From Flagellimonas sediminis (lineage in GTDB: Bacteria; Bacteroidota; Bacteroidia; Flavobacteriales; Flavobacteriaceae), in contig NZ_JAAAMI010000005.1 of NCBI RefSeq assembly GCF_010500845.1, positions 1 through 64,000 of the forward strand: a stretch of 64,000 nt of DNA, read 5' to 3'. Made by a program: the position numbers and the translations under genes. Shown here one piece after another: positions 6,193-31,496 of the stretch. The notes below the pieces were generated by a model. That model was given only the letters and a program-made list of their open reading frames with translations, searched no databases and had not been told where the DNA came from. Numbering within the stretch: the first letter of the stretch is position 1; every line of letters begins with the position of its first letter.

Positions 6193-6218
6193 TTGGTATA
6201 ATCAAAAGTTGATACAGA

Positions 6219-6932: not shown

Positions 6933-6933
6933 T

Positions 6934-10692: not shown

Positions 10693-13446
10693 ATGCTCAA
10701 AAATCTTTTTAGGATAGTACTTTATTTTGTTCCCTTTTACATTTTTGGACAGAATCTGTTACCGCCCATATATAACTATAGGTTGTCAGAATATAAGGGT
10801 GCTAGTAAGAATTGGGATGTTTCGGCCAATGCCAATGGCGAGTTGTTCGTAGCTAATAATAAGGGATTGCTCCATTTCAATGGCGAGCAATGGACCTTGA
10901 ACAAATTGCCCAACAACACTATTATACGTTCGGTTGAATGCATTGGTGATCGGGTTTATACCGGATCATACGAAGAGTTCGGCTATTGGACCAAGAATGC
11001 AATAGGGGGATTGGAATATACCTCGCTTACTCATTTAATAAAGGATCACACGTTTACAAGCGAGGAATTTTGGGAGATTTATCCTGCAAAGGATGGAAAC
11101 GTGCTCTTCCGTTCCTTCTCCGCAATCTATTGTTACAAGGGAGATAAGATTGTAGTGGTAGATCCTCCCCATGTGGTGACGGATATTATCGAATACGAGG
11201 ACAAATTGATCGTGGCCGGAGGTTCCCTCGGATTATTTGAGGTGAAGGATAAGGAATTGGTGCCGCTTCCCGATCAGGATTCCCTTTTGGGAAAAACAGT
11301 AACCGATATGGTGGTTTTTCAAGGGAAATTGCTTGTGGGAACCAAACTGAACGGCTGTTATCTGTTCGATGGGCTAAAAATGCAACCGTGGGAAGACAAG
11401 ATCAACAATGAACTCAAACAGCACCAATTGAACAAAATTGCCATGTTGGGACAAGGTCAAATTGGTTTTGGTTCCATCAAAAACGGGATTTATATCTATG
11501 ATGTTGTCACAAAGGATTACCAAGTCCTTAATCGTGAAACAGGACTGGAGAACAATACGGTACTTTCCATCTTGCAGTTCAACGATCAATTATGGTTGGG
11601 TCTGGATAACGGTATTGCTCGTGTAAAACTTCATAATCCCATAACCTATTATACGGATTATTCAGGAACGCTGGGCATGGTCTATGATGTGGCCAGTTAT
11701 AAAGGGAAGCTCTTCTTAGGGAGCAACACAGGCGTATTTTATTTTGATGGGGGAATCTTGCGTTTCGTCAACGGTTCTCAGGACCATGTTTGGGATTTGG
11801 TGGAACTGGAAGGTGATTTGATCTGTGGGCACAACACAGGAACCTATAAGGTAACCGAAAAAGGGTTCCAACAGTTGAGCACGGTTGCGGGAGGGTATGA
11901 GATCATAAAAGTTCCCGATCACGAGGCTACCTATATGCAGGGAACCTACAACGGTTTGGCAAAATTTGAAAAACTTGACAATGGCGAATGGCAGATCCAA
12001 AAGATTCAAGGTTTGGATTTTCCTGTGAAACAATTGTGTTTTGAAACCCCAAAAATATTATGGGTGGCCCACCCATACAAGGGATTTTATAGGGTCCATT
12101 TTGACGATGGTTATGATCATGTAAGCAACATCCAACAATTTGATGGAGAAGGTGCCCCTAGTCCATATAACGTGAAGATTTTTAATATCAAAACGCATAT
12201 TGTACTCAATAGTGAGGGTAATTGGTACCGTTATAACTCAATAGGGGACACCATAGTTCCTTTTGAGGAATTCAGGTATTATAGGAATAAAGAGCTTTTA
12301 TTCTATGACGAGGATTATTATTGGTTTGTGGATTCGGATAATGAGAAGGCCATCATCCATACCAACTTGAAGGGAGATAGCTTGGTAATAGCGGATGCTC
12401 CGTTAAGAGAAAGGTTGGCCCCCGATTCCCAAAATGTGATCAAGGTGAATGATAGTACCTCTTACATTACCCTTACCGATGGCTTTGCCAAGATCAACAA
12501 TGCAAAACTGGAAAAACAGTACACAGGTCAAGAGTTGCCCGCCCCGGATATTATTGTATTGAAGGATCAAAAAAAGATCTATCCAGCATCCGCACAAGAG
12601 ATTGGGATCCCTAACAGATGGTCACAATCCCTTACTATAGAAGTGGCATCGCCCCTTTATATCTCGCCTCAATTTTATTATGAATTGAGCGGTCCCAAAC
12701 AATATTCCGAGTATTCGGAGAACGGTTTCATCAATTTCCAGAACCTACCATTTGGCGACTATACTTTTAAAGTATACACTCTGGGTATGGACAACGAGTT
12801 ATCCGAGGCCAGTGTCCTGGAATTTTCAATAGCACCACCTTGGTATTTTTCTTGGGCCAGTTTATTGCTATATGCGGCAATCATTGTGTTGGTGATCTAC
12901 TTGGTCAGACATTACAACCGCAAAAAATTATTGCGGAAGCATATGGAGTTACAAAAACAAATGGAGAAGGAGCAGCGTGAACGGATGGCAAAACTTGAAA
13001 AGGAGGAATTGGCAAAAGAAGTGCGGTTGAAGCAGAACGAATTGGCCAGCACTACCTTGAATATTGCCAAAAAGAACGAAATGATCCTGGAACTCAAGAA
13101 TATGTTATTGGTCAACAAAGACAAGTTTTCAAATTCTCAGCGCTACAGGGCATTCATCAAAAAATTGAACAACTCCATTGAAGATACCGAAGATTGGAAA
13201 CGGTTTGAGGTAAATTTCAAGGAACTTCATGAGGATTTCTTCGAGCGACTCTTAAAAGCATATCCCACCTTGACGCCGAAGGACCTTAAATTATGCGCTT
13301 ATCTTAAAATGAATCTTTCCACAAAGGAGATTGCACCACTGATGGCCATTTCGGTGAGGGGTGTTGAAATACATCGTTATCGTTTAAGAAAGAAGCTGGA
13401 AATAGATAGTTCTGATAATCTTTCAAACTTTCTGATCACTTTTTAG
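10693..13446 (+). CDS. PUL sensor-regulator: periplasmic two-component-type propeller, Y_Y_Y domain, one membrane helix, coiled coil and LuxR-type HTH
   Basis: A 917-residue single-protein signal transducer. After an N-terminal signal (LFRIVLYFVPFYIFGQ) come about 650 residues of propeller repeats (WDVSANANGELFVANNKGLLHF, NKIAMLGQGQIGFGSIKNGIYIY), then a triple-tyrosine domain. A transmembrane helix follows near 716-740 (SLLLYAAIIVLVIYLVR), then a charged coiled coil (about 745-790). The C-terminal LuxR/GerE-like HTH is at about 860-910 (LTPKDLKLCAYLKMNLSTK, EIHRYRLRKKL). This is the hybrid-sensor layout seen beside Bacteroidota PULs, but with direct DNA binding in place of a kinase. It sits just upstream of susC, so it probably senses a glycan fragment in the periplasm and activates the locus. 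The three TACATCA elements at 13491-13595 are candidate targets. Confidence 0.88.
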   Translation: MLKNLFRIVLYFVPFYIFGQNLLPPIYNYRLSEYKGASKNWDVSANANGELFVANNKGLLHFNGEQWTLNKLPNNTIIRSVECIGDRVYTGSYEEFGYWTKNAIGGLEYTSLTHLIKDHTFTSEEFWEIYPAKDGNVLFRSFSAIYCYKGDKIVVVDPPHVVTDIIEYEDKLIVAGGSLGLFEVKDKELVPLPDQDSLLGKTVTDMVVFQGKLLVGTKLNGCYLFDGLKMQPWEDKINNELKQHQLNKIAMLGQGQIGFGSIKNGIYIYDVVTKDYQVLNRETGLENNTVLSILQFNDQLWLGLDNGIARVKLHNPITYYTDYSGTLGMVYDVASYKGKLFLGSNTGVFYFDGGILRFVNGSQDHVWDLVELEGDLICGHNTGTYKVTEKGFQQLSTVAGGYEIIKVPDHEATYMQGTYNGLAKFEKLDNGEWQIQKIQGLDFPVKQLCFETPKILWVAHPYKGFYRVHFDDGYDHVSNIQQFDGEGAPSPYNVKIFNIKTHIVLNSEGNWYRYNSIGDTIVPFEEFRYYRNKELLFYDEDYYWFVDSDNEKAIIHTNLKGDSLVIADAPLRERLAPDSQNVIKVNDSTSYITLTDGFAKINNAKLEKQYTGQELPAPDIIVLKDQKKIYPASAQEIGIPNRWSQSLTIEVASPLYISPQFYYELSGPKQYSEYSENGFINFQNLPFGDYTFKVYTLGMDNELSEASVLEFSIAPPWYFSWASLLLYAAIIVLVIYLVRHYNRKKLLRKHMELQKQMEKEQRERMAKLEKEELAKEVRLKQNELASTTLNIAKKNEMILELKNMLLVNKDKFSNSQRYRAFIKKLNNSIEDTEDWKRFEVNFKELHEDFFERLLKAYPTLTPKDLKLCAYLKMNLSTKEIAPLMAISVRGVEIHRYRLRKKLEIDSSDNLSNFLITF

Positions 13447-13490
13447 GTTGAGAAAGCTCTCTGCAACTGTTAATGGGGCTCCCGCCTGAT

Positions 13491-13595
13491 TACATCATTA
13501 CTACATCACTATGTTAATTTTTTTTACATCTTCAACCGCCATACTACTGCAAATACGGCGAAATAAGGGGTTTCAGAAGGTATTTTAATGATGTA
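13491..13595. promoter_or_regulatory. Three TACATCA elements upstream of susC
   Basis: TACATCA occurs at 13491-13497 and again one helical turn on at 13502-13508, and the inverted form TGATGTA at 13589-13595. The region lies between the regulator gene and susC, and a -7-like TATTTTTG is at 13662-13669, only 8 bp before the susC ATG. Binding by the upstream LuxR-type regulator is inference. Confidence 0.35.
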
Positions 13596-13676
13596 TTTAT
13601 TATGTAATGCCTTGGCGATACAGATACCGAGCTCTTTATTAATTTAGTAAAAATCTAACTCTATTTTTGCACAATT

Positions 13677-16600
13677 ATGAAAATTAAAAGCAAACTATTG
13701 CTAATCTCGTTTTTGTTGTTTCAGGCGGTACTTTTCGCACAAAACAAGATAACGATTTCGGGAACGGTGCTCGATGATCAGGGTCAACCGTTGCCTGGTA
13801 CCAATGTTGTCGTAAAGGGTACTACTACAGGTATCCAAACCGATTTTGACGGAAACTTTACATTGGACAATGTCCCTGGGGATGGGATTCTGGTGTTTAG
13901 TTACATCGGATTTACAACCCAAGAAGTGCCTGTGAACAATCGAACGGTCATGGAAGTCAACATGAGATTGGACACTCAAAGTCTGGACGAAGTGGTGGTC
14001 GTTGGTTATGGTACACAGAAGAAAGCAGACCTTACGGGTTCCATTGTAACCATAAATTCGGAGCAAATTGAAAAAACACCTTCTGCCAACCCCGTACAAT
14101 CATTACAAGGTAAAGTAGCTGGGGTCCAGATTGTGACCACAGGCTCTCCGGGTGCTTCACCAACCGTGAGAATACGAGGTTTGGGCACCTATTCTGATGC
14201 TACCAACATCTTATATGTTGTTGACGGCATGTTTTATAGTAACATCGACTTTTTGAACCCCAACGATATTAAATCGATGAACGTTTTGAAAGATGCTTCA
14301 TCTTCAGCGATTTATGGGGTGCGTGCTGCAAACGGGGTCATCATCATTGAAACCAAATCTGGTGGCAAGAATAGAAAACCGCAGATTGAGTACAATGGGT
14401 ATACTGGGATACAGCGTGCACAAAATGTTTTGAAAATGGCCAATGCCGAACAGTTTGTGACGATGGCCGTGGAATCCGGTTCTACTGCGGACGTTCAATT
14501 CGTGCTGAATGCCATGCAGCGATATGGCAGGAGCAGGGTGAATCCAAACGTGCCTAATGTGAATACGGATTGGTACGATGAGATTATTCGTGATGGTTTG
14601 ATACAAAACCATAGTTTAAGCGTAACAGGGGGAACAGATAATGTTTCCTATTCGTTGGGTACCAACTACTTCGCCCAAGAAGGGTTGCTCGACATGAAAA
14701 ACGAATATGAAAGGTTCAACATCAGATCTAAATTGGATGTGGATGTTTTGGACAATGTTAAGGTTGGTGTCAACACGGTTTTTAGTAATGCCACTCAGTA
14801 CACCCCGGAAGATTCCGCTTGGTTTAAAGCCTATTTTGCGGTACCTATTCTCCCGGTGTACGATGATTTGAATACCGACGCTACCCCAATACGGTACGCC
14901 AATGCCCAAGCTTTGGGGTATAGGGGAACCCAAAACCCGTTCCCTGATATGAAATACAATGACAACAGGTTAAAAATTAGAAAGCTGTTAGCCAACGTTT
15001 ATTTACAAACCGATTTGATCAAGGATAAGTTGACCTTCAAGACAACTTACAATGTGGACTTTTCCGCTTTGGAAGAGCGCTATACCAACCTACCCTATAA
15101 CATGGGATTTGGTGATCAACGGATATCTTCCATCAATAGGAAGCAGAACAACTACTATAACCAGATCTGGGATAACATCCTCACCTATAATGATACTTTT
15201 GCCGATGATCACAATGTGACGCTCATGGCAGGTGCCTCCTACAGGGATGAGGCCGCCAACCGTTTCGAGGCTACTGGTAGTGATATTGTAGGTATAGATT
15301 ATGATACCTCTTGGTATCTGGATTTTGCCGATCCCCTTTCCTTCAACAATAACGTAGAAGAGGCAAATAGAAGGATTTATGGCCAATCTTATTTTAGCAG
15401 GCTCTCATACAATTATAAAGATAGATACCTATTATATGGAACCTTTAGAGCGGATAGGTCTTCTAAATTCACACAGGACCAGTGGGGTTATTTCCCATCC
15501 GTAGGGGCAGGTTGGGTGATTTCCCAAGAGCCTTTCATGAAGGACAACAATATTTTTGATTTCTTGAAGCTAAGGGCCGCCTGGGGTCGTTTGGGTAACG
15601 ATAACGTAGCTGCCAGTGCAGGAGCAAATACAGTTACCAACACTACCGTGGACTTAGGCGATACCCCAGTTACCGGGATCACCGCTACCAGTACCTATAC
15701 CGATTTGACTTGGGAGTTAGTGGAGGAAACGGATTTCGGTATCAACATGAGAACTTTCAACAACAGATTGTCCTTGGAGGCCGATTACTACATTAGGGAT
15801 ACCAAGAATGCCATTATGCCGGTTTACATTCCGATCGCAAACGTTACAGTGAGCAGGAACTCCGGTGTGATCCGTAACTCTGGTGTGGAGGTAGCATTGA
15901 ACTGGACCAATGACATCACTCCCGATTTCAACTATACAGTGGGCGCCAACTTCACTACCGTGAAGAACGAAACCTTGGAAATTGAGGATGAGAGGGGATA
16001 TATTGATTCTGGTTCGGCAGAGTTTCGCCAAAGAACCATTGTAGGGGAGCCTTTGTACGCTTTCTACGGTTACGAGACTACAGGTGTTTACCAAAACCAA
16101 GCCCAGATAGATGCAGATCCGGTTGCGCAAAGCGCTATTGCCAACGGTCAGGATATTGAACCTGGTTATCTGATCTATAGGGACAGAAATGGCGATGGAT
16201 CTATTACTGATGAAGACAGGACCGTGTTGGGATCTTTCTTGCCCAAGTTCACCTACGGTGGAAATATTGGGATCAACTATAAAGATTTTGGCTTCACCAT
16301 GAATTTCTATGGTCAAAGCGGTAACAAGATATTGAACAGGAAACGAGGAGAAATCATTTTTACCAGCGATACCAATATGGATGCCGATTTGGCCAAAAAC
16401 CGTTGGCATGGTGAGGGAACCAGCAACAGCTATCCTTCTTCTGCCGGTCTAAGGGACAGTTGGAACCAAAAACTCAGCAATTTTTGGGTAGAGGATGGGG
16501 ATTTCTTCCGAATCCAGAACATCCAATTGGCCTACACGTTGAGGGGTGCTAAATTGAAAGGCAATGCTCCTGACTTTAAGTTCACCCTTACTGCGGAAAG

Positions 16601-16715
16601 ACCTTTGACCTTGTTCAATTACAACGGTTTCAACCCTGAAGTTTCTGATGGCGTTGACCGTCAAACCTATCCGGTACCTTCCATATACACAATCGGTGTT
16701 AATGTTAAATTGTAA
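13677..16715 (+). CDS. SusC/RagA-family TonB-dependent outer-membrane transporter
   Basis: A 1012-residue SusC protein. The signal peptide (LLLISFLLFQAVLFAQ) precedes a carboxypeptidase-regulatory-like domain (ITISGTVLDDQGQPLPGTNV) and the SusC signature with TonB box and plug (LDEVVVVGYGTQKKADLTGS; VQSLQGKVAGVQI; SSAIYGVRAANGVIIIETK). A 22-strand barrel ends with TIGVNVKL. It imports oligosaccharides across the outer membrane together with the SusD lipoprotein encoded 10 bp downstream. Within this locus the predicted cargo is beta-1,2-gluco-oligosaccharide. Confidence 0.95.
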   Translation: MKIKSKLLLISFLLFQAVLFAQNKITISGTVLDDQGQPLPGTNVVVKGTTTGIQTDFDGNFTLDNVPGDGILVFSYIGFTTQEVPVNNRTVMEVNMRLDTQSLDEVVVVGYGTQKKADLTGSIVTINSEQIEKTPSANPVQSLQGKVAGVQIVTTGSPGASPTVRIRGLGTYSDATNILYVVDGMFYSNIDFLNPNDIKSMNVLKDASSSAIYGVRAANGVIIIETKSGGKNRKPQIEYNGYTGIQRAQNVLKMANAEQFVTMAVESGSTADVQFVLNAMQRYGRSRVNPNVPNVNTDWYDEIIRDGLIQNHSLSVTGGTDNVSYSLGTNYFAQEGLLDMKNEYERFNIRSKLDVDVLDNVKVGVNTVFSNATQYTPEDSAWFKAYFAVPILPVYDDLNTDATPIRYANAQALGYRGTQNPFPDMKYNDNRLKIRKLLANVYLQTDLIKDKLTFKTTYNVDFSALEERYTNLPYNMGFGDQRISSINRKQNNYYNQIWDNILTYNDTFADDHNVTLMAGASYRDEAANRFEATGSDIVGIDYDTSWYLDFADPLSFNNNVEEANRRIYGQSYFSRLSYNYKDRYLLYGTFRADRSSKFTQDQWGYFPSVGAGWVISQEPFMKDNNIFDFLKLRAAWGRLGNDNVAASAGANTVTNTTVDLGDTPVTGITATSTYTDLTWELVEETDFGINMRTFNNRLSLEADYYIRDTKNAIMPVYIPIANVTVSRNSGVIRNSGVEVALNWTNDITPDFNYTVGANFTTVKNETLEIEDERGYIDSGSAEFRQRTIVGEPLYAFYGYETTGVYQNQAQIDADPVAQSAIANGQDIEPGYLIYRDRNGDGSITDEDRTVLGSFLPKFTYGGNIGINYKDFGFTMNFYGQSGNKILNRKRGEIIFTSDTNMDADLAKNRWHGEGTSNSYPSSAGLRDSWNQKLSNFWVEDGDFFRIQNIQLAYTLRGAKLKGNAPDFKFTLTAERPLTLFNYNGFNPEVSDGVDRQTYPVPSIYTIGVNVKL

Positions 16716-16725
16716 AAAAATTGAA

Positions 16726-18270
16726 ATGAAAAATAGTATGAACCCAGTATATAAATTGGTATTTGTCTTGATGGCCGTGCTTTTTGTGCAGTCGTGCGAT
16801 GACAAATTCAATGACATTGAAGGTCAGTTGAACGCAGATGACCTAGATTATTCAGCAACCGAGGACATGGTTCAAGCGTTGGTGGGGGCCTATAATATTT
16901 TCGCAACCCGTGGTTGGGAAGAGCCTTTGCTACTATCCGTTCGTGGTGATGATGTGAATGCCGGTGGTTTGGGAGACCAACAACCCTTTGCCGATACGGA
17001 TAATTTCGTTTACGATCAAGGGTATTGGATGTACAATTCCCTTTGGAACCTTCATTATGGGGATATCGTTAGTTTGAACACCGAAATCAGTCTTATTGAG
17101 AATTTCCAGGCTTTTGCAACTGAAACAGATGTGGCAAAAGGAGACCAATACATCGCCGAGATCAAGGTGATGAGAGCCTGGTTGCACTTTAACTTGGCCA
17201 GGGTTTGGGGAGATGTGTTCATCATCCAGACCAACCAGCCAGATGCCGAGATTGCAGATGGGACGGCGTCCAAAAATGATGTGATGCAGTTCATTTCCGA
17301 TCAAATGGATGAGGTGATTCCATTGTTGCCCAATATGAGGCCCAATGAACGAACCGATATTCCAGGTGGGGTAACCCGTTATACTGCTTATGCCTTAAAG
17401 GCAATGGCTCATTTGGAAATGGAAGACTACCAAGGAGTTGCCGACGCCAGTGCAGCGATCATCAATTCCAATAAATTTTCCTTGTACCCCGATTTTTATA
17501 GCTTGTTCAAAAAACCAGGAGAGTTGAGCGATGAAAGTTTGATGGAGTTTCAGTTTTCGGATTATGGTTCCAGTACAGGAGACACCTTTTATCATTTGTA
17601 TGCACCATTTGGTCCACAAGGTTGGACACCCGCTAGAGCCAATGCCTCGGACGGTTGGGGATTTTATGAGCCCAGCATGAAATTTATCAAGTTCATGTTG
17701 GACAGAGGTGAGACCCAAAGATTGGAAACCAGTGTGATTTTCACGGACAGAGGTATCGCAGAACTTCAAACAGATCCCAATTATGCAACGTTGCCATCAT
17801 TTGTGAACAACACAACAAGAGATGGCGATATCTTTAACGATTATGCAAGGGCATTGTTCGCAAGTGGTAAACACTATTTGCCTTCCGTACAGTTGACAGA
17901 TGGACGGAACAATTACGGTGGAGGAAAAAACTATATCGTAATCCGTTATGCGGAAGTCTTGTTGATGTATGCCGAAGCATTGACCCGAGGGGCATCTGGC
18001 TCAGGTATGACAGCTGATCAAGCCGTGAACCTGGTCAGGGCTAGGGCCAATATGCCCTCAATCTCTGGGGTTTCTTCAGATGACGTAATGGATGAAAAGT
18101 TTGCCGAATTGGGTATGGAATGGGGTATTCGTTACTTCGATATGATCCGTTTGGACAATTTCTCCGAGTTGAGCTATGATGGAAGGACCTTTACTGCGGA
18201 CAAGCAGTTGCTACCTTACCCTCAAGCCCAAGTGGATGCACTTCCAACATTATCAGGGAGTACCGATTAA
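16726..18270 (+). CDS. SusD/RagB-family surface glycan-binding lipoprotein
   Basis: The start was set at the ATG at 16726 because the lipoprotein signal follows directly (YKLVFVLMAVLFVQSC, Cys25); an upstream in-frame Met lies inside susC. The 514-residue protein has the SusD helical architecture: ADDLDYSATEDMVQALVGAYN near the N-terminus, the TPR-like FNLARVWGDVFI region, and YIVIRYAEVLLMYAEAL with EWGIRYFDMIRL near the C-terminus. It forms the lid of the SusC transporter at the cell surface and binds the substrate glycan. It is co-transcribed with the neighbouring susC. Confidence 0.94.
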   Translation: MKNSMNPVYKLVFVLMAVLFVQSCDDKFNDIEGQLNADDLDYSATEDMVQALVGAYNIFATRGWEEPLLLSVRGDDVNAGGLGDQQPFADTDNFVYDQGYWMYNSLWNLHYGDIVSLNTEISLIENFQAFATETDVAKGDQYIAEIKVMRAWLHFNLARVWGDVFIIQTNQPDAEIADGTASKNDVMQFISDQMDEVIPLLPNMRPNERTDIPGGVTRYTAYALKAMAHLEMEDYQGVADASAAIINSNKFSLYPDFYSLFKKPGELSDESLMEFQFSDYGSSTGDTFYHLYAPFGPQGWTPARANASDGWGFYEPSMKFIKFMLDRGETQRLETSVIFTDRGIAELQTDPNYATLPSFVNNTTRDGDIFNDYARALFASGKHYLPSVQLTDGRNNYGGGKNYIVIRYAEVLLMYAEALTRGASGSGMTADQAVNLVRARANMPSISGVSSDDVMDEKFAELGMEWGIRYFDMIRLDNFSELSYDGRTFTADKQLLPYPQAQVDALPTLSGSTD

Positions 18271-18294
18271 CATTAACTAAATAAACAGCACAAG

Positions 18295-20667: not shown

Positions 20668-20709
20668 GTGCTTATTACTGGCACAAACCATTTGAGTTAG
20701 TTAGTTTTT

Positions 20710-22080: not shown

Positions 22081-23443
22081 AAGAAACTTATTTCTGTCAA
22101 CCCTGATAATGCTGATCATGGCATGTGGCGGGGGAGACGATTATACCTATATTCCCACAACACCTGAAATTCCTGATGATGGGTCCAACAACGTGCCAAC
22201 CATTAGCGATAATGATTTGATGGACTTGGTACAAGAAGAAACCTTTAAATACTTCTGGGATTATGCCGAAACTAATTCAGGTGGAGCCAAAGAAAGGTAT
22301 CATCCCAAGGACCCAGGTCTCAATGCCGAGGTGGTAACATCTGGTGGGACAGGTTTTGGTCTTATGGCAATTTTGGTAGGTGTTGAACGCGGGTTCATTA
22401 CCCGAAGCGAAGCTGTGGACCGATTGACCACGCTGTTGGATTTTTTGGAAAATGCAGATCGTTTTCACGGAGCATGGTCCCATTGGATCAATGGTTCAAC
22501 CGGGGCCGTCATCCCATTTAGCAGTTTGGATAATGGTGGCGACCTTGTGGAAACCGCCTTCCTGACCCAAGGACTCATCTGTGTGAAGGAATATTTCAAA
22601 AACGGTTCTGATGAAGAAAAAGCATTGGCCCAGCAGGCCGATAATCTTTGGAAGGGAGTAGAGTGGAATTGGTATACTCAAAATCAAAACGTTTTGTATT
22701 GGCATTGGAGTCCCAATTTCGGATTCGACATTAACCTGCAGTTAAAAGGCTATAACGAGGTGTTGATTACCTATGTTTTAGCAGCGGCATCACCAGATTA
22801 TAGCATTGAAAAACCGGTATACACCAATGGTTGGGCATCGGGTGGTGGAATCAAATCTGCGAATACCCAATATGGTTTTCCCCTTTTGGTGAAACATAAT
22901 GGGAACGAACAATTTGGCGGACCTCTATTCTGGGCCCATTACTCCTATTTGGGACTTAACCCCAAGACCCTTTCAGATGAGTATGTGGATTATTGGGATG
23001 TAAACGTGAACCATTCCAAGATCAATTATACCTATTGTGTCACCAACCCAAAAGGTTTTGAAGATTATGGGGAAGATTGTTGGGGATTGACAGCCAGTTA
23101 TACTAGGAATAATGATGGTAGCTTGGGGTATAATGCCCACAGCCCTGCCAATGATACAGGAGTGATTTCACCAACTGCGGCCATCAGTTCCATTCCGTAC
23201 ACTCCTCAGGAATCTTTAAAAGCAATGCACTATTTTTACAAGAACAAGGATAAGCTTTTAGGTCCGGCCGGATTTTACGATGCCTTCAGTCCGGAAAATA
23301 ATTTTTGGGTCGCAGAAGCCTATTTGGCCATTGACCAAGGACCACAGATCATCATGATCGAAAATTACCGTTCAGGTTTACTGTGGAACTTGTTCATGGG
23401 CAACGAAGATGTGAAGGCAGGACTAACAAAACTCGGATTTTGA
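22073..23443 (+). CDS. GH144-type endo-beta-1,2-glucanase lipoprotein, copy 2
   Basis: A 456-residue paralogue of the preceding gene, with a lipoprotein signal (LIMLIMAC, Cys18) and a longer acidic/proline linker after it. The same motifs are present: TFKYFWDYAET, TSGGTGFGLMAILVGVERG, NGGDLVETAFL (Asp157, Glu160) and KGYNEVLITYVLAAASP (Glu229). The copies differ in the stretch before the barrel and in the loop around RNNDGSLGYNAHSP, so they may differ in cleavage mode or in tolerance of substituted glucan. The ATG overlaps the end of copy 1 by 8 bp, which implies translational coupling. The following esterase starts 1 base after its stop. Confidence 0.82.
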   Translation: MIKRNLFLSTLIMLIMACGGGDDYTYIPTTPEIPDDGSNNVPTISDNDLMDLVQEETFKYFWDYAETNSGGAKERYHPKDPGLNAEVVTSGGTGFGLMAILVGVERGFITRSEAVDRLTTLLDFLENADRFHGAWSHWINGSTGAVIPFSSLDNGGDLVETAFLTQGLICVKEYFKNGSDEEKALAQQADNLWKGVEWNWYTQNQNVLYWHWSPNFGFDINLQLKGYNEVLITYVLAAASPDYSIEKPVYTNGWASGGGIKSANTQYGFPLLVKHNGNEQFGGPLFWAHYSYLGLNPKTLSDEYVDYWDVNVNHSKINYTYCVTNPKGFEDYGEDCWGLTASYTRNNDGSLGYNAHSPANDTGVISPTAAISSIPYTPQESLKAMHYFYKNKDKLLGPAGFYDAFSPENNFWVAEAYLAIDQGPQIIMIENYRSGLLWNLFMGNEDVKAGLTKLGF

Positions 23444-23444
23444 T

Positions 23445-24233
23445 ATGAAAAGTAAACTGTTATTATCGCTATTATTTTTGGGATTTGCCTTGGGCAATGC
23501 CCAGTGGCAATCCAAGTATGAGGAAAAGATACTCGTGCAAGGGAACGATACCTTAAGGTATCGGATCATGTATCCCAAGAACTTCAAGGAAACGGAAAAA
23601 TACCCGGTCATTTTGTTTTTGCATGGAGCAGGGGAACGGGGCAATGATAATCAAAGTCAGTTGGTACATGGAGGAAAATTATTCGCAACCGATTACCTTC
23701 AAGAACGATATCCTGCCATCGTTATTTTTCCACAGTGTCCCAAAGAAAGCTATTGGTCCAATGTAGATGTGGACCGAAGTACCTATCCCATCCACTTGAA
23801 ATTCAAATATGACCAAGGACCAACCACACCCATGCGTATGGTCATGGATTTGCTTGACAGTACCATCCAACAACCGTATGCTGACGATAACCAAGTTTAC
23901 TTAATGGGTCTTTCTATGGGCGGTATGGGCACTTTTGAATTGTTGAACAGAAAGCCGGATACGTTCGCTGCTGCCATCCCCATTTGTGGTGGAGGTGACC
24001 CCAATTCGGTGTCGGTTTATGCCAAGAATACTCCATTATGGGTATTTCATGGGGCACAGGACAATGTGGTGAACCCATTGCAGTCCATGGAAATGGTTGC
24101 TGCCTTATTGAAGACAGGGGTTTTTCCAAAATTCACCTTATATGATTTTGCCAATCACAATAGCTGGGATCCCGCATTTGCAGAACCCGAGTTGTTGCCT
24201 TGGTTGTTTGCTCACAAAAAACAAAATCAGTAG
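23445..24233 (+). CDS. Secreted alpha/beta-hydrolase esterase (CE1 / PHB-depolymerase-like)
   Basis: The 262-residue product has a SPase I signal (LLLSLLFLGFALGNAQ). The nucleophile elbow GLSMGG holds Ser157, with likely partners Asp206 (GAQDNVV) and His238 (NHNSW), and the oxyanion segment is LFLHGAGERG. Such enzymes remove acyl groups such as acetyl or feruloyl from polysaccharides. Its place between the glucanases and the GH43-like gene suggests it strips an acyl substituent, for example succinyl or acetyl, from the glucan (inference). It is packed 1 base from its upstream neighbour and 2 bases from the downstream start. Confidence 0.85.
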   Translation: MKSKLLLSLLFLGFALGNAQWQSKYEEKILVQGNDTLRYRIMYPKNFKETEKYPVILFLHGAGERGNDNQSQLVHGGKLFATDYLQERYPAIVIFPQCPKESYWSNVDVDRSTYPIHLKFKYDQGPTTPMRMVMDLLDSTIQQPYADDNQVYLMGLSMGGMGTFELLNRKPDTFAAAIPICGGGDPNSVSVYAKNTPLWVFHGAQDNVVNPLQSMEMVAALLKTGVFPKFTLYDFANHNSWDPAFAEPELLPWLFAHKKQNQ

Positions 24234-24235
24234 CC

Positions 24236-26005
24236 ATGGGGTCAAGAACACTTTTAACTTCCTTATTCGTTGTGTTTTTGACCATGTCGCCATTATTGGT
24301 TGAGGCACAACAGCGAACCTATTGCAATCCCATTAACATAGATTATGGGTACACGCCAATTCCTAATTTGGCAACCCACGGTAAACATAGGGCCACCGCA
24401 GATCCTGTTATTGTGACCTTTAAAGGGAAGTACTACCTGTTTTCCACCAACCAATGGGGTTATTGGTATAGTGATGATATGTGCCATTGGAACTTTGTTC
24501 CGCGCAAATTTTTAAGGGAGCGTAACGTAACCTACGATGAACTTTGTGCCCCTGCAGCCTTTGTGATGAAAGATGAACTGTATTTGATCGGATCTACACA
24601 TGGACCTGCTTTTTCCATGTGGAAGAGTAAGGACCCTACCACGGATAATTGGGAAATTGCCGTGGATTCACTCAAAGCGGGAGCTTGGGATCCCGGATTT
24701 TTATATGAAGACGATACGGACAAACTTTACATGTACTGGGGATCCAGCAACGTATTCCCAATATTGGGAACAGAGATCAACACCAAGACATTACAGTCCG
24801 AAGGTTACGTGAAACCTTTGATTTCCTTGGTTCCTGAAGACCATGGATGGGAACGTTTTGGTGAATACAACGACAATACCTTTTTACAGCCCTTTATGGA
24901 AGGTGCTTGGATGACCAAACACAACGGAAAGTACTATTTGCAGTACGGAGGTCCTGGTACGGAATTCAGCGGCTATGCCGATGGGGTGTATATCAGTGAA
25001 ATGCCTTTGGATCGTTTCGAATATCAATCCCACAATCCTTTTGCCTACAAACCCGGAGGATTTGCCCGGGGAGCTGGTCATGGGGCCACTTATCAAGATA
25101 CTTTTGGAAATTGGTGGCACGTGTCTACCATCATTCTGAACCAAAAGAACAATTTTGAACGCCGCATTGGTATCTGGCCAGCCGGTTTTGATCAAGATGA
25201 TATCATGTATTGCAACACCGCTTATGGCGATTACCCAACCTATCTTCCTCAAAAAAATGCCAATCACGTTCAGGGACTCTTCACGGGTTGGATGGTGCTG
25301 AACTATAACAAACCAGTCCAAACTTCTTCAACCTTGGGAGGTTATACTTCCAATTACGCGGTTGATGAGGATATGAAGACTTACTGGAGTGCCAAAACGG
25401 GAAACAATGGGGAATGGTTCCAGACGGATCTTGGTGATGTTTCTACCATTAATGCCATCCAAATCAATTATGCGGATCAAGATGTGGAATTTATGGGAAA
25501 ATCATCAGGTGTCTACCATCAATACAAGATCTACAGTTCCCTCGACGGTAAAAAATGGTCTGTATTGATCGATAAAAGCAAGAACGAGACCGATGTGCCC
25601 CATGACTACATCGAACTAAAAAATCCTGCCAAGGCACGCTACCTGAAAATGGAAAACATCAAAATGCCGACAGGGAAGTTTGCCCTGAGTGGTTTTAGGG
25701 TCTTTGGCAAGGGAGCTGGTGAAAAACCAAATTCCGTGGAAGATTTTATTGTGCTTAGGACAGATCCCAAAAAGTTTGGAGAGCGCAGAAATTCATGGCT
25801 ACGCTGGAAACAGAACGATCTGGCCGATGGTTACATCATCTATTTTGGCAAGTCTCCGGACAAACTCTACGGAAGTATCATGGTCTATGGAAAAAACGAA
25901 TATTATTTTTCCGGAATGGACCGAACGGATGCCTATTATTTTCAGATAGAAGCATTCAACAACAATGGGATTTCGGAACGGACACCCATTGTGAAATCAG
26001 AATAA
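24236..26005 (+). CDS. GH43-fold secreted glycosidase-like protein with discoidin (F5/8 type C) and FN3-like domains
   Basis: The start was set at ATG 24236, 2 bases after the esterase stop. A signal peptide (SLFVVFLTMSPLLVEAQ) precedes a five-bladed propeller with the three acidic GH43-type positions visible: RATADPVIV (Asp56), GAWDPGFLY (Asp152) and PFMEGAWM (Glu222). About residues 365-495 form a discoidin/CBM32-like domain (DEDMKTYWSAKTGNNGEWFQ, LKMENIKMP), and the last ~90 residues form an FN3-like domain. GH43 relatives usually act on arabinose, xylose or galactose, so its role beside beta-1,2-glucanases is unclear; it may remove a side-chain sugar. The propeller could also belong to a related five-bladed family. 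Confidence 0.78.
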   Translation: MGSRTLLTSLFVVFLTMSPLLVEAQQRTYCNPINIDYGYTPIPNLATHGKHRATADPVIVTFKGKYYLFSTNQWGYWYSDDMCHWNFVPRKFLRERNVTYDELCAPAAFVMKDELYLIGSTHGPAFSMWKSKDPTTDNWEIAVDSLKAGAWDPGFLYEDDTDKLYMYWGSSNVFPILGTEINTKTLQSEGYVKPLISLVPEDHGWERFGEYNDNTFLQPFMEGAWMTKHNGKYYLQYGGPGTEFSGYADGVYISEMPLDRFEYQSHNPFAYKPGGFARGAGHGATYQDTFGNWWHVSTIILNQKNNFERRIGIWPAGFDQDDIMYCNTAYGDYPTYLPQKNANHVQGLFTGWMVLNYNKPVQTSSTLGGYTSNYAVDEDMKTYWSAKTGNNGEWFQTDLGDVSTINAIQINYADQDVEFMGKSSGVYHQYKIYSSLDGKKWSVLIDKSKNETDVPHDYIELKNPAKARYLKMENIKMPTGKFALSGFRVFGKGAGEKPNSVEDFIVLRTDPKKFGERRNSWLRWKQNDLADGYIIYFGKSPDKLYGSIMVYGKNEYYFSGMDRTDAYYFQIEAFNNNGISERTPIVKSE

Positions 26006-26029
26006 TTACGACTACAAAACAACCTGATC

Positions 26030-28297
26030 ATGTACTATAGAAAATTACTTTTCGCCCTCTTGGCGGTCACTTTGGCTACCGCTAAGGCCCAACAACGGAT
26101 TCCCGAGGTTGAGGCACTTTTGCAAAAAATGACCTTGGAGGAAAAAATAGGTCAGTTGAACCTGTTGACCCCTGGAGGTGGAGTGGCCACCGGTGAGGTG
26201 GTGAGCAAAAATGTGGAAACCAAGATCAAGGCCGGTGAGGTAGGCGGTCTTTTTGGGGTTGCTGGACCCGACAAAGTAAGGGTGGCGCAAGAGCTAGCCG
26301 TTAAAAAAAGCCGATTGGGAATCCCCTTGCTTATCGGTTCCGATGTGATCCATGGCTACAAGACAACGTACCCTATCCCTTTGGGATTGGCATCCAGTTG
26401 GGATATGGATTTGGTGAAACAAGCGGCCCAAATGGCAGCAAGGGAAGCTACGGCAGATGGCATCAACTGGAACTTTTCACCTATGGTGGATATTGCCCGA
26501 GACCCGCGTTGGGGAAGGATTGCTGAAGGTGCAGGCGAAGACCCCTATTTGGGCTCCAGAATAGCCGAGGCAACCGTAAAGGGCTATCAAGGAGACGATT
26601 TAGCCGCGGCCCATACCATGTTGGCCTGCGTAAAACACTTTGCACTGTACGGAGCCGCCGAAGCTGGCCGTGATTATCATTCCGTGGATATGAGCAAGAT
26701 TAAGATGTTCAACCAGTACTTGCCCCCATACAAAGCCGCTGTGGATGCTGGTGTGGCCAGTGTCATGAGCTCTTTCAATGATGTGGATGGAATCCCTGCC
26801 ACGGGAAATAAGTGGTTGTTGACCGATTTACTTCGTGATAAATGGGGATTCAGTGGATTTGTGGTTTCCGACTACACCTCACTAAACGAAATGATCCCTC
26901 ACGGATTAGGTGACTTGCAAGCGGTTTCCGCATTGGCTCTGAATGCAGGTTTGGATATGGATATGGTTGGCGAAGGCTTCCTCACTACCCTGAAAAAATC
27001 CTTGGAAGAAGGCAAGGTGACCGAGGAAGCGATCACCAACGCCTGCCGAAGAATTTTGGAAGCCAAATACGTTTCTGGACTTTTTGAGGATCCATATCGT
27101 TATTTGGACAGCAAACGTCCTGCGAAGGATATTTTAACTACGGAAAACAGGACATTGGCCCGTACCTTGGCCGCCCATTCCTTTGTTCTGTTGAAAAATG
27201 AAAACAATATTTTGCCCCTTCAAAAAAGCAAAAAGATTGCCTTGGTAGGGCCATTGGCAGATAGCAGGAACAATATGTTGGGTACCTGGGCACCTACGGG
27301 AGATGTAAGTTTGGCTGTGACCATTTTGGAAGGATTCAAGAATGTGGCCCCCAATGCAACGATTAAGTATGCAAAGGGAGCCAATATTTCAGATGATAAG
27401 GAATTCGCAGAACATGTGAACGTATTCGGTCCAAGAATAGAAATCGATGAACGTTCCCAAGAAGTGATGGTGGATGAGGCAGTGGAATTGGCCAAGAATT
27501 CTGATGTTGTGGTGGCCGTTGTAGGAGAGGCTACCGAAATGAGCGGGGAAGCAGCCAGCCGCACCGATATTTCAATTCCTGAAAGTCAGAAAATATTGAT
27601 TCGTGCCTTGGTGGCGACAGGAAAACCTGTTGCCTTGATATTGATGAGCGGTCGACCCTTAACCATTCCTGATGAATTTGGATTGCCCGTGGCCATTTTG
27701 CAGGTGTGGCACCCTGGTGTAGAGGCGGGCAATGCCATTGCCGATGTGGTTTTTGGGGATTACAATCCCTCTGGAAAATTGACGGTTACCTGGCCACGGA
27801 ATGTGGGTCAAATCCCTATTTATTACAGCGCCAAGAACACGGGTAGGCCTGCCCCTGAAAATGGAGAGTTCCAAAAATTCAGGTCCAATTATCTGGATTC
27901 CCCCAATTCCCCATTATTGCCTTTTGGATATGGATTGAGCTACACCAACTTTGAATACTCGGATCTAAAATTGGACAAAACTAGCATAGGTCAGGGAGAA
28001 TCGATTTCTGCTACAGTTACAGTGACCAATACCGGAAATTTTGATGGGGAAGAAGTGGTACAGTTGTATTTGAAGGATGAGGTAAGAAGCATAACCCCGC
28101 CAAAACGCGAGTTGAAAGGTTTTCAAAAGATACTATTGAAAAAAGGGGAGAGCAAGGCAGTGACCATCACCCTATCCCCTGATGATTTGAAATTTTATAA
28201 CGGCCAATTGGATTTTGTGGCAGAGCCAGGAGCGTTTCAGGTGTTTGTTGGGACCAACTCCGATGCCCAACTTTCAAAATCATTTATATTGAAATAA
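26030..28297 (+). CDS. GH3 beta-glucosidase (BglX-like)
   Basis: The 755-residue secreted protein has a signal peptide (LLFALLAVTLATAKAQ), the GH3 N-terminal TIM barrel with substrate motifs (DVIHGYKTTYPIPLGLASSW, KHFALYGAAEAGRDYH) and the nucleophile in GFVVSDYTS (Asp281). The C-terminal alpha/beta sandwich carries an acid/base candidate in EATEMSGEAASR, and an FN3-like domain (ESISATVTVTNTGNFDGEEV) closes the protein. It would release glucose from the oligosaccharides made by the GH144 enzymes. Bacteroidota GH3 enzymes encoded beside beta-1,2-glucanases act on sophoro-oligosaccharides, which fits this context. A perfect hairpin follows the gene. Confidence 0.92.
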   Translation: MYYRKLLFALLAVTLATAKAQQRIPEVEALLQKMTLEEKIGQLNLLTPGGGVATGEVVSKNVETKIKAGEVGGLFGVAGPDKVRVAQELAVKKSRLGIPLLIGSDVIHGYKTTYPIPLGLASSWDMDLVKQAAQMAAREATADGINWNFSPMVDIARDPRWGRIAEGAGEDPYLGSRIAEATVKGYQGDDLAAAHTMLACVKHFALYGAAEAGRDYHSVDMSKIKMFNQYLPPYKAAVDAGVASVMSSFNDVDGIPATGNKWLLTDLLRDKWGFSGFVVSDYTSLNEMIPHGLGDLQAVSALALNAGLDMDMVGEGFLTTLKKSLEEGKVTEEAITNACRRILEAKYVSGLFEDPYRYLDSKRPAKDILTTENRTLARTLAAHSFVLLKNENNILPLQKSKKIALVGPLADSRNNMLGTWAPTGDVSLAVTILEGFKNVAPNATIKYAKGANISDDKEFAEHVNVFGPRIEIDERSQEVMVDEAVELAKNSDVVVAVVGEATEMSGEAASRTDISIPESQKILIRALVATGKPVALILMSGRPLTIPDEFGLPVAILQVWHPGVEAGNAIADVVFGDYNPSGKLTVTWPRNVGQIPIYYSAKNTGRPAPENGEFQKFRSNYLDSPNSPLLPFGYGLSYTNFEYSDLKLDKTSIGQGESISATVTVTNTGNFDGEEVVQLYLKDEVRSITPPKRELKGFQKILLKKGESKAVTITLSPDDLKFYNGQLDFVAEPGAFQVFVGTNSDAQLSKSFILK

Positions 28298-28305
28298 TGG
28301 TGAAC

Positions 28306-28330
28306 AAAGTGCTGTACAGCACTTTTGTTT
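28306..28330 (+). terminator. Intrinsic terminator or attenuator within the PUL
   Basis: A perfect 20-bp palindrome (AAAGTGCTGT/ACAGCACTTT, 28306-28325) is followed by TGTTT. It lies between the GH3 gene and the sulfatase gene, so it may end or dampen the main PUL transcript. Confidence 0.6.
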
Positions 28331-28352
28331 CATCAACCTAAAAACTGTAAAT

Positions 28353-29978
28353 ATGTATTGGAAAAGAGCCATTCTGCTGCTATTGTTGATTTCTGCCTGT
28401 AAACAACAGGAAAAACAAAAAGAAGAAGTGGCAGCTGGTCCGCCGAACATTATTTTCATCATGTCCGATGACCATGCTTTTCAGGCGATCAGTGCGTATG
28501 GACATGAATTAGGGAAATTGGCCCCTACGCCCAATATAGATCGCATTGCTAAAAATGGGGCCCTTTTCAGGAATAATTTCTGTACCAATTCTTTATGCGG
28601 ACCAAGTAGGGCGGTGATCCTAACGGGAAAATTGAGCCACATCAACGGTTTTCGCATGAATGGCGAGCAGTTTGATGGCAGACAGCCAACCTTACCCAAA
28701 TATTTGAAAGAGCTAGGGTATCAGACAGGGATTATTGGGAAGTGGCATTTGCATGGTGCACCCACAGGATTTGATTATTGGGATATTTTGAACGATCAGG
28801 GCAATTATTACAATCCCGAGTTCATTTCCGGGGGCGACACCACTATAGTTGAAGGCTATGCCACGGATTTGATCACCGATAAAAGTCTGGATTGGTTACA
28901 GCACCGAGACAGCGCACAGCCTTTTTATTTGATGGTGCACCATAAGGCACCTCACAGAAATTGGATGCCGGCCCTGCGACATCTGAACGCCTACGACACC
29001 ATTACCTTTCCGTTGCCGGAAACGTATTTTCCAGAGTTTGTTAACCAACAGGCGGCTTCTGAACAATTGCAAACCATTTATACCGATATGTACGAAGGGC
29101 ACGATCTTAGGATGAGCAAAGGCCCTGGAAGTACGGAATTGGCCCAAAATCCATGGACCATCGATTTTGATCGTATGACACCCGAGCAGCGTAAAATTTG
29201 GGACGAAGCCTATCTGCCCAAAAACAACGCCTTTTGGGAAGCCAACCTTCATGGCAAAGAACTGGCCGAATGGAAAGGACAAAGGTTTCTTCAGGAATAT
29301 TTGGCCACGATAAAAGCTGTTGATGAAGGTGTTGGTAGGATTTTGGACTATCTGGAAAAAACAGGGTTGGATAAAAATACTTTGGTGGTATATACCTCTG
29401 ACCAAGGATTTTATTTGGGCGAGCACGGCTGGTTCGATAAGCGTTTTATGTATGAGGAATCCATGAAAATGCCTTTGCTGATGCAATTGCCAGGAGTCAT
29501 CGAACCGGGAACAGAAATCGATGCGATGGTGCAGAACCTTGATTTTGCCCCTACCTTTTTGGATTTGGCAGGCGGGCCACAATATGCATCGGAAATGCAA
29601 GGTCAGTCCTTTAGGCATGTATTGGATGGAACTGGAAACGATTTCAAGAATGCCGTGTATTACCACTACTATGATTTTCCGGCATTCCACATGGTGAAAA
29701 GGCAATATGGGGTGCGCACGGATCGCTACAAACTCATCCATTTTTATGATGACATTGATGCATGGGAGTTCTATGACCTTCAAAAAGACCCCCACGAAGT
29801 ACATAATGCCATAAATGACGAAGAATATAAAGATATCATAACCTCCATGCACCAAAAATTGGATAGCTTGCAAGCTGTTTATAAAGTGACCGAAAAGGAA
29901 TTTGAGACCACTCCAAAGGAAAAAGTCGATAATGCCTATGAAGTCTTTAAAAAATTGAGAGGAACACCTATCCAATGA
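28353..29978 (+). CDS. Formylglycine-dependent sulfatase, lipoprotein
   Basis: The 541-residue product has a lipoprotein signal (LLLLLISAC, Cys16) and the alkaline-phosphatase/sulfatase fold: IIFIMSDDHAF (metal-binding Asp39/Asp40), the maturation motif CGPSR (Cys82-Arg86, Cys type) with TGK following, GKWHLHG, and VVYTSDQGFYLGEHG. The cysteine must be converted to formylglycine by a maturase that is not in this window. It should cleave a sulfate ester, although related enzymes act on phospho- or phosphonate esters. Its 3' end overlaps the next gene by 4 bp (ATGA). Within a beta-1,2-glucan locus it implies an anionic substituent on the substrate (inference). Confidence 0.9.
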   Translation: MYWKRAILLLLLISACKQQEKQKEEVAAGPPNIIFIMSDDHAFQAISAYGHELGKLAPTPNIDRIAKNGALFRNNFCTNSLCGPSRAVILTGKLSHINGFRMNGEQFDGRQPTLPKYLKELGYQTGIIGKWHLHGAPTGFDYWDILNDQGNYYNPEFISGGDTTIVEGYATDLITDKSLDWLQHRDSAQPFYLMVHHKAPHRNWMPALRHLNAYDTITFPLPETYFPEFVNQQAASEQLQTIYTDMYEGHDLRMSKGPGSTELAQNPWTIDFDRMTPEQRKIWDEAYLPKNNAFWEANLHGKELAEWKGQRFLQEYLATIKAVDEGVGRILDYLEKTGLDKNTLVVYTSDQGFYLGEHGWFDKRFMYEESMKMPLLMQLPGVIEPGTEIDAMVQNLDFAPTFLDLAGGPQYASEMQGQSFRHVLDGTGNDFKNAVYYHYYDFPAFHMVKRQYGVRTDRYKLIHFYDDIDAWEFYDLQKDPHEVHNAINDEEYKDIITSMHQKLDSLQAVYKVTEKEFETTPKEKVDNAYEVFKKLRGTPIQ

Positions 29979-30817
29979 AAAAATATTTAATTGCCCTATT
30001 GCTTTTTGTAGTGATGGTCGGTGCTAATGGCCAGACCATAGATGTGATTACTTACAACATCCGATATGACAATCCCAACGACAAACCCAACAATTGGGAC
30101 AACCGGAAGGCATTCCTGATTTCGCAATTGCAATTTTATGCCCCGGATGTTTTTGGAACGCAAGAGGGGTTGGTGCATCAACTCAAGGATATTGACCAAG
30201 GGCTTGGCGACTATACCTATGTTGGTATAGGGCGTGATCATGGTGATGACCGTGGTGAGTTTTCCGCTCTATTCTATAATACCAAAAAACTCAACGTTTT
30301 AAAGCATTCCACGTTTTGGCTGTCCGAAACTCCAGATGTACCATCCAAAGGATGGGATGCCGCCTTGCCCCGTATCTGTACGTATGGACTTTTTGAAAAT
30401 AAGGCGGATGGGAGCAAGTTCATGGTCTTCAATACGCATTTTGATCATGTGGGGGTAACGGCAAGGGCAGAAAGCTCCAAACTTATCCTAAAAAAAATGA
30501 AAGAATTGAATCCTAATGGTCTGCCTGTTATTTTGACGGGTGATTTCAATTTGGAAAGCGACAGCTCTGGGGTGCAAGTAATTTTGGGAGAAATGACGGA
30601 CACCCATGTCGCTGTGGGAAAAAATGCCTTTGGCCCTAATGGTACCTTCAACGGGTTTGAGTTCAATAAACCTGTGGAGCGGAGGATAGACTACATATTC
30701 GTCTCCCCAAACAATGTTGAGGTTCTAAAAAGTGCGATTTTGAGCGACTCGAAAGACTGCCGATACCCTTCGGATCACCTTCCGGTATTTGCACGGTTAC
30801 GTCTCGTAGTACCTTAA
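29975..30817 (+). CDS. Secreted endonuclease/exonuclease/phosphatase-family phosphodiesterase
   Basis: The 280-residue protein has a signal peptide (LIALLLFVVMVGANGQ) and the EEP-fold motifs: VITYNIRYDN, TQEGLVHQL (metal Glu), FNTHFDH, ILTGDFNLESDS and the C-terminal RRIDYIFVS with CRYPSDHLPVF (catalytic His). The family hydrolyses phosphoesters or phosphodiesters; secreted bacterial members are usually misnamed 'endonuclease'. It is translationally coupled to the sulfatase by a 4-bp overlap. A glycan-linked phosphodiester such as phosphoglycerol is an attractive substrate in this context but is inference. Confidence 0.87.
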   Translation: MKKYLIALLLFVVMVGANGQTIDVITYNIRYDNPNDKPNNWDNRKAFLISQLQFYAPDVFGTQEGLVHQLKDIDQGLGDYTYVGIGRDHGDDRGEFSALFYNTKKLNVLKHSTFWLSETPDVPSKGWDAALPRICTYGLFENKADGSKFMVFNTHFDHVGVTARAESSKLILKKMKELNPNGLPVILTGDFNLESDSSGVQVILGEMTDTHVAVGKNAFGPNGTFNGFEFNKPVERRIDYIFVSPNNVEVLKSAILSDSKDCRYPSDHLPVFARLRLVVP

Positions 30818-30893
30818 AACTCGTTTCTTCGACCTCAAAATATCAGTTGTTTGAATTTTGTAGGTTTTGCCATAAAATTTACGGCCCCGATTA

Positions 30894-30929
30894 TTTGCAC
30901 TTTATTCAATGAATATTGAAAAATGCAAA
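30894..30929. promoter_or_regulatory. 36-bp imperfect inverted repeat upstream of the Ior operon
   Basis: TTTGCA and TGCAAA flank an inner TTCAAT-GAAT-ATTGAA hairpin. A run of seven T follows about 10 bases later. It could terminate PUL transcription or act as an operator for the genes starting at 31014. Confidence 0.4.
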
Positions 30930-31013
30930 TGCAATGTTAATTTTTTTAAGGATATTAACGGAGGATATAAGCATTTTAAAATAAATCCATAACTTCAAGG
31001 GAATTTTTATATC

Positions 31014-31469: not shown

Positions 31470-31496
31470 TCCAACCCACCTGAAAACCTAGAAAAA

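Follow-up and report, generated by a model that had tools for sequence, protein, structure and literature searches.

A sulfatase-bearing GH144 locus of Flagellimonas sediminis with 6-O-sulfated beta-1,2-glucan as its predicted substrate

Loci in which a sulfatase accompanies GH144 enzymes are already in print. Lapébie et al. (2019; PMC6499787) reported that GH144 loci of marine organisms can include an additional sulfatase and postulated a hitherto unknown marine polysaccharide bearing sulfate, and Wolter et al. (2021; PMC8072126) described, in Maribacter dokdonensis 62-1, a cluster of GH3, two GH144, susCD and sulfatase genes, and noted that every Maribacter and Zobellia, and many other marine flavobacteria, have GH144 genes; we draw on passages of both papers. 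In excerpts of further papers, GH144 was reported to be enriched in deep Mariana Trench water (PMC10405439), in a marine genus of the NS5 group (PMC9122927) and in Alistipes from fish guts (PMC11748540). The founding GH144 enzyme, CpSGL of Chitinophaga pinensis (PDB 5gzh/5gzk), has the key residues D135, D139, E142, E211, F268 and Y330, E211 being the general acid, according to the part of PMC12102758 used here. We analyzed a locus of this kind on a 64,000-nucleotide stretch of Flagellimonas sediminis DNA (positions 1 to 64,000 of contig NZ_JAAAMI010000005.1, assembly GCF_010500845.1), called the window below. A first-pass annotation, made from the sequence alone, had taken a full decoration-stripping set in a beta-1,2-glucan locus to be new, a claim that fails for the sulfatase addition in view of the passages of PMC6499787 and PMC8072126.

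The GH144 enzymes and their locus

The region from 10693 to 30817 holds eleven genes, all on the + strand and each in an uninterrupted open reading frame (ORF) of the window's ORF listing. With SusC adjoining SusD, and with degradative enzymes and a regulator in the same direction, it is a polysaccharide utilization locus. Judged from the GH144 matches (635 and 530 bits) and from the recurrence of much of the gene order on named Flavobacteriaceae contigs, the gene chain is far beyond chance. Among Bacteroidota GH144 loci, this one is of the form that carries a sulfatase, and we incline, if only slightly, to the view that it serves beta-1,2-glucan carrying 6-O-sulfate, a predicted substrate. 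This view draws on the identity and residues of the GH144 enzymes, the linkage of the sulfatase to GH144, the tree of the sulfatase clade and the chemistry of aligned S1_11 enzymes. The genes, all of which lie where the first-pass annotation had placed them and keep their family assignments, are as follows:

10693..13446, + strand: sensor-regulator with a LuxR-type helix-turn-helix (GerE, 1.2e-5) and Y_Y_Y (3.6e-5, just below the Pfam cut-off)
13677..16715, + strand: SusC, TonB-linked outer-membrane protein (TIGR04056, 833 bits)
16726..18270, + strand: SusD lipoprotein (Pfam; the ORF opens at 16648, start chosen by eye from the signal peptide)
18295..20667, + strand: triple LamG lipoprotein, probable surface glycan binder (three Laminin_G_3 stretches, 8e-67)
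20710..22080, + strand: GH144a, endo-beta-1,2-glucanase type, lipoprotein by eye (PF10091; 61% identity to CpSGL)
22073..23443, + strand: GH144b, second GH144, lipoprotein by eye (PF10091; 53% identity to CpSGL)
23445..24233, + strand: alpha/beta-hydrolase esterase (145 bits to esterase 3doh; signal peptide without lipobox by eye)
24236..26005, + strand: GH43-like beta-propeller with a CBM32/F5-8C-like domain (ORF 24200-26005; F5/8C Pfam match, GH43 structure matches)
26030..28297, + strand: GH3 beta-glucosidase, BglX type (NF011678, 906 bits; NCBIfam cut-off 666)
28353..29978, + strand: Cys-type sulfatase, S1_11-like, member of a GH144-linked clade (C82-G-P-S-R86)
29975..30817, + strand: EEP-fold phosphatase-like protein (EEP family; closest named solved chain a mannosyl-6-phosphatase)

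By eye, SusD probably starts at 16726 rather than 16648, and the GH43-like protein probably at 24236. Pfam and NCBIfam scans of the regulator gave no match to a histidine kinase domain, and ARAGORN found no tRNA in the window.

On sequence grounds, both glycoamylase-like proteins are GH144 enzymes. GH144a and GH144b matched CpSGL over the full length (635 and 530 bits, respectively, to 5gzk) and are 55% identical to each other. Motifs and alignment together showed that all six key residues are kept, as D148, D152, E155, E225, F283 and Y345 in GH144a and as D153, D157, E160, E229, F286 and Y353 in GH144b; by our own count, construct 5gzk is numbered 20 higher than the CpSGL residues in the cited part of PMC12102758. 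XCC2207 (XcSGL), itself a GH144 enzyme, gave 132 bits with GH144a and 158 bits with GH144b, and the GH189 chain 8wy1 gave 33 bits with GH144b and no match with GH144a. The first-pass annotation had named a position outside GH144 in a phylogeny as the outcome that would overturn it; our comparison, made by similarity and residues instead, placed both proteins inside the family, and the possibility that they lie outside was rejected on the similarity to CpSGL and the kept residues. Its choice of beta-1,2-glucan as the likely backbone is supported. Within the source genome, GH144 matches occurred only in the window.

Linkage and predicted chemistry of the sulfatase

GH144 occurred at 143 places in 83 of 279 sampled Flavobacteriaceae genomes. 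Homologues of the window's sulfatase, taken at E values up to 1e-150, fell into two identity bands with a gap between them, the band limits being set after the gap was seen. Copies of at least 63% identity lay within 25 kb of GH144 at 52 of 53 places, while among the matches scored those of at most 55% identity did so at 1 of 59. The class sample of 396 genomes gave a similar picture, with 5/5 copies of at least 57% identity within 20 kb of GH144 by eye and 0/64 scored copies of at most 54% identity. Related genomes are not independent in these counts, and the numbers of distant copies are lower bounds, as only the best three (class) or five (family) at most per genome were taken under strict E-value limits; one 35% homologue beside GH144 (locus L189, genome G320), for example, is absent from the class-wide scored matches. 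Of the 83 family genomes with GH144, 52 had a linked copy; it was present in 48 of the 59 with at least two GH144 genes on one contig versus 4 of the 24 others. The sulfatase clade is tightly linked to GH144, which supports the first-pass annotation in counting the window's gene as part of the locus.

A tree of 79 sulfatases placed the window's protein, the linked copies and the solved chain 9s03 in one clade of 54 rows (support 100/98). GH144 was present in the adjoining DNA of 45 of its 53 labelled rows, or 41 of 49 once four rows sampled around GH144 are set aside, and of 0/25 rows outside it. The tree holds one best sulfatase per locus and excludes loci L001-L030 and L108-L146 as well as any row of unusual length or with less than 45% identity; the named loci are those sharing a short exact stretch with the query, a subset of the relatives. 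Among the clade rows without GH144, L031, L037, L040 and L072 come from contigs of only 10.6-14 kb, and L065 and L068 have other locus genes across the examined DNA, L068 with a short GH144 match. On named contigs GH144 recurs together with GH3 beside this sulfatase, and homologues in the Flagellimonas/Allomuricauda group are 95-96% identical to the window's. The Flavobacteriaceae genera of the clade are, going by their names, presumably mostly marine, and the clade reaches the Bacteroidales with a Bacteroides contig (L076) and an Alistipes contig (L075); on the latter, GH3 and a match to GH144 accompany the sulfatase.

Three side observations concern these sulfatases. The Bacteroides sp. GM023 contig (L076:24-18596) carries two PF10091 genes, two different sulfatases, a fimbrillin-like protein, SusC/D and GH3, its GH144 being about 38% identical to the window's. 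In Cesiribacter andamanensis (L074:10074-15044), the clade sulfatase has an EEP gene and the gene of a FUSC-like membrane protein as neighbours. The F. sediminis genome itself holds a second sulfatase outside the window (G000:C25:46411-47898), 50% identical to the first.

The sulfatase has the Cys-type centre C82-G-P-S-R86, which fits CxPSR. Its closest solved chain is 9s03, deposited as "Putative sulfatase" (65% identity, 809 bits), followed by 7p24, a "mucin-desulfating sulfatase" (524 bits), and 5g2v, an "N-acetylglucosamine-6-sulfatase" (516 bits), which we take to be BT4656, an S1_11 enzyme; the exo-L-galactose-6-sulfatase 7lha is far more distant (334 bits). On the strength of the nearest solved chains, we call the protein S1_11-like. 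D362, R364 and H446 align with identical letters in 7p24 and 5g2v, and we take them to be the S1_11 recognition triad. Characterized S1_11 enzymes, which remove 6-sulfate, bind the sugar at O3 through a His and at O4 through an Asp/Arg pair (PMC10154612, in passages that give residue types only). Glucose as the sulfated sugar is a prediction from the GH144 context.

Esterase, GH43-like protein and EEP gene

We compared one GH144 region from each of 63 class genomes, some of which have further GH144 places. They come from 74 genomes with a match, 11 being left out: the window's own, the fragmented G350 and G384, and eight whose matches were all weak or synthase-like. Four regions had a sulfatase at 50% identity or more. 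At fixed score limits, the other 59 held homologues of the esterase in 27, of the GH43-like protein in 21, of GH3 in 38 and of the EEP protein in 3; one of the 59 had a 35% sulfatase homologue. As the esterase and the GH43-like protein occur in so many regions that lack this sulfatase, they belong to GH144 loci at large: they are general parts of such loci and not part of the sulfate addition.

The "GH43-fold" label of the first-pass annotation proved right for the second of these proteins. A profile search matched a GH43 chain at E 7e-18, and the predicted model (mean pLDDT 86.6) matched GH43 structures, BT_3662 being best by E value, though the Pfam GH43 model gave no match and Pfam found only F5/8C-type families at E values up to 0.001; because of this missing match we named the protein "GH43-like." D56, D152 and E222 (counted from the start at 24236) are invariant in 29 aligned sequences and presumably form the Asp-Asp-Glu catalytic triad of the five-bladed GH43 propeller. 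A GH43-like protein with a CBM32-like domain recurs in GH144 loci both with and without the sulfatase. What the protein would do on plain glucan is not obvious.

The EEP gene follows the sulfatase gene with its start codon overlapping the stop codon by 4 bases. Its product is 45% identical over 243 columns to the mannosyl-6-phosphatase 4c1r, and the motifs TQE, THFDH, GDFN and SDHLPV, which we assume to have their usual roles, are all present. As this nearest named relative is a phosphomonoesterase, neither the label "phosphodiesterase" nor the phosphoglycerol reading of the first-pass annotation finds support.

Across the genus, the gene sits largely apart from GH144. An EEP gene of at least 59% identity was found in 17 of 23 same-genus genomes, and in 12 of the 17 it adjoins a pair of Fer2 and MoCo oxidoreductase genes, the same pair that lies 3' of it in the window. 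By site, EEP thus belongs in most of the genus to the following Fer2-MoCo (molybdopterin oxidoreductase) pair. GH144 lay within 25 kb of EEP in 6 of the 17 genomes and elsewhere or on another contig in 7, and the remaining 4 had no GH144; in G002 and G010 the two genes fall on separate short contigs, so that no distance applies. Since EEP is kept in 4 of the 6 same-genus genomes that lack GH144, this implies that it has a use outside the locus and is not dedicated to it. EEP as a fixed member of the locus was rejected on these genus-wide positions beside Fer2-MoCo and away from GH144.

In the window, the locus is placed between a MetA-like gene and EEP, with PAP2 and MetA-like genes at 7787-10328 on the - strand and EEP, Fer2 and MoCo at 29975-33701 on the + strand. 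In 5 of 16 same-genus regions these genes form one continuous block (PAP2 and MetA-like on -, EEP, Fer2 and MoCo on +) with no locus between them, one of the five genomes lacking GH144 and four having it elsewhere; the locus therefore occupies a site that is empty in relatives. Among named relatives, L037, L039 and L042 have PAP2 and MetA-like genes between sulfatase and EEP. Pointing the other way, the sulfatase gene of G019 and of G022 directly adjoins EEP where no Fer2-MoCo pair is present. EEP may be an ancient component that remained in place as the other locus genes were lost or moved, or else the locus lands beside EEP. Further upstream, at 5338-7783, an Ada-like methyltransferase gene precedes a pair of 2OG-Fe(II) oxygenase genes; together they probably serve in the repair of alkylated DNA.

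Predicted substrate and comparison with known systems

In nature, the locus would act on a beta-1,2-glucan, either linear or cyclic, that bears 6-O-sulfate. LamG and SusD would bind the glucan on the cell surface, where both GH144 lipoproteins would cut it, and SusC would import the pieces. The sulfatase, working from the chain end, would remove sulfate from O6 of D-glucose units, the position that bears substituents in known periplasmic glucans; the esterase, the GH43-like protein and, where present, EEP would trim other groups, and GH3 would release glucose. By eye, the signal peptides of LamG, SusD, both GH144 enzymes and the sulfatase look like those of lipoproteins, and the esterase, GH43-like, GH3 and EEP proteins look soluble and periplasmic. 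This suggests that the glucanases act first, outside, and that most trimming would follow import. The idea of the first-pass annotation that three extra hydrolases unblock the glucanases reverses this order and is doubtful, as neither the esterase nor EEP has, by eye, a lipobox in its signal peptide, and both would more likely act on imported pieces.

Several observations weigh against a sulfated beta-1,2-glucan as the target. Linkage is no proof that the glucan is what carries the sulfate, and no sulfated beta-1,2-glucan was named in the open-license literature that we searched. Glucose is absent from the S1_11 sugars named in the passages of PMC10154612 (N-acetylglucosamine [GlcNAc], N-sulfated glucosamine [GlcNS] and L-galactose, all O6-sulfated), which tie the aquatic members to L-galactose. 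Since a linked sulfatase is missing from 31 of the 83 family genomes with GH144, the enzyme is not needed for the locus; in the same-genus locus G008, GH3 stands directly before EEP with no sulfatase. A second sulfatase copy in G551 is unlinked to GH144, the lone exception in the high-identity band, and the clade members L070 and L074 seemingly have no GH144 in the DNA examined around them. As for a producer, PF10091 lies in very long ORFs in eight class genomes (2,744-2,917 codons in seven, 1,958 in G331), presumably as expected of cyclic glucan synthases. Sulfotransfer_3, the only sulfotransferase family searched, was found in three of the eight, each time on another contig than the synthase-like gene. 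When plasmids were searched with one synthase-like protein, 265 records matched, most often from Rhizobium (95), Sinorhizobium (24), Pantoea (18) and Paracoccus (18).

That the target is instead a larger sulfated polysaccharide, for example an algal one, with beta-1,2-glucosyl stretches as just one component, the sulfatase acting on another sugar such as 6-sulfated L-galactose, strikes us as unlikely, though it is the strongest of the other explanations. Aquatic S1_11 sulfatases can use the same triad for L-galactose, according to the part of PMC10154612 cited, and a GH43-like enzyme of putative activity is present; but Pfam and NCBIfam scans found no galactan-cleaving family among the eleven locus proteins, GH144 and GH3 recur beside this sulfatase, and 7lha scores far below 9s03 (334 versus 809 bits). 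We consider it quite improbable that the esterase, the sulfatase and EEP form one coherent set, co-evolved to strip acyl, sulfate and phosphoglycerol groups from a substituted periplasmic glucan, as the first-pass annotation had proposed. All three genes are indeed in the window; across the family, GH144 has an EEP gene within 25 kb in 26 of the 52 GH144 genomes with the linked sulfatase and in 5 of the 31 that lack it (Fisher p 0.002, a value that ignores relatedness), always as copies of at least 50% identity (31/68, versus 0/76 below that limit), and EEP is within 2.3 kb of the sulfatase in 22 of the 26. Against the set stand the esterase in 27 of 59 regions that lack this sulfatase, the genus-wide site of EEP beside Fer2-MoCo (12/17, with no GH144 within 25 kb in 11 of the 17), its retention in 4 of 6 GH144-free genomes and its mannosyl-6-phosphatase relative. 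Least probable of all, to a degree that we reject it, is that the sulfatase-like protein removes phosphoglycerol, as a phosphonate hydrolase or phosphodiesterase from within its superfamily. The sulfatase superfamily is promiscuous, and there are weak matches to PehA (130 bits) and a phosphonate monoester hydrolase (99 bits), but the protein is far closer to named sulfatases (5g2v, 516 bits) than to the phosphonate monoester hydrolase, and keeps the aligned putative substrate residues.

Should the clade consist of beta-1,2-glucan 6-O-sulfatases, it would offer a handle for finding the sulfated marine polysaccharide proposed in 2019. A wider proposal, to which we give slightly less than even weight, is that the whole clade is dedicated to 6-O-sulfate removal from beta-1,2-glucan and that bacterial periplasmic or cyclic glucans have a sulfated equivalent which is common in the sea but still to be isolated. 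The sulfatase would be a clean assay target, one enzyme with one predicted bond, and the dissection of the locus shows which genes belong to the sulfate story and guards EEP and the esterase from over-reading.

Compared with described systems, the locus shares its core, a terrestrial-type GH144 locus plus sulfatase, and the resulting inference with those of Lapébie et al. (PMC6499787), whose cited passage does not treat a sulfatase clade, a sulfate position, the esterase, the GH43-like protein or EEP. It has the same enzymes together as the Maribacter dokdonensis 62-1 cluster, for which the cited passage of PMC8072126 names no regulator, LamG, esterase, GH43-like protein or EEP. Judged against these passages, what is added here is the sulfatase clade with its linkage, the predicted O6 position and the division into linked, general and non-dedicated genes. 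With CpSGL, both GH144 enzymes share the key residues, and 59 of the 63 class-wide GH144 regions lack a sulfatase of the window's type. The mannosyl-6-phosphatase 4c1r and the window's EEP protein, whose substrate is putative, belong to one family. With the S1_11 6-O-sulfatases 5g2v and 7p24, the Cys-type sulfatase has the aligned putative recognition residues in common; the characterized S1_11 enzymes remove 6-sulfate from GlcNAc or GlcNS of mucin or heparan sulfate (PMC10154612, passages cited), whereas the window's protein falls, together with 9s03, in a separate clade linked to GH144.

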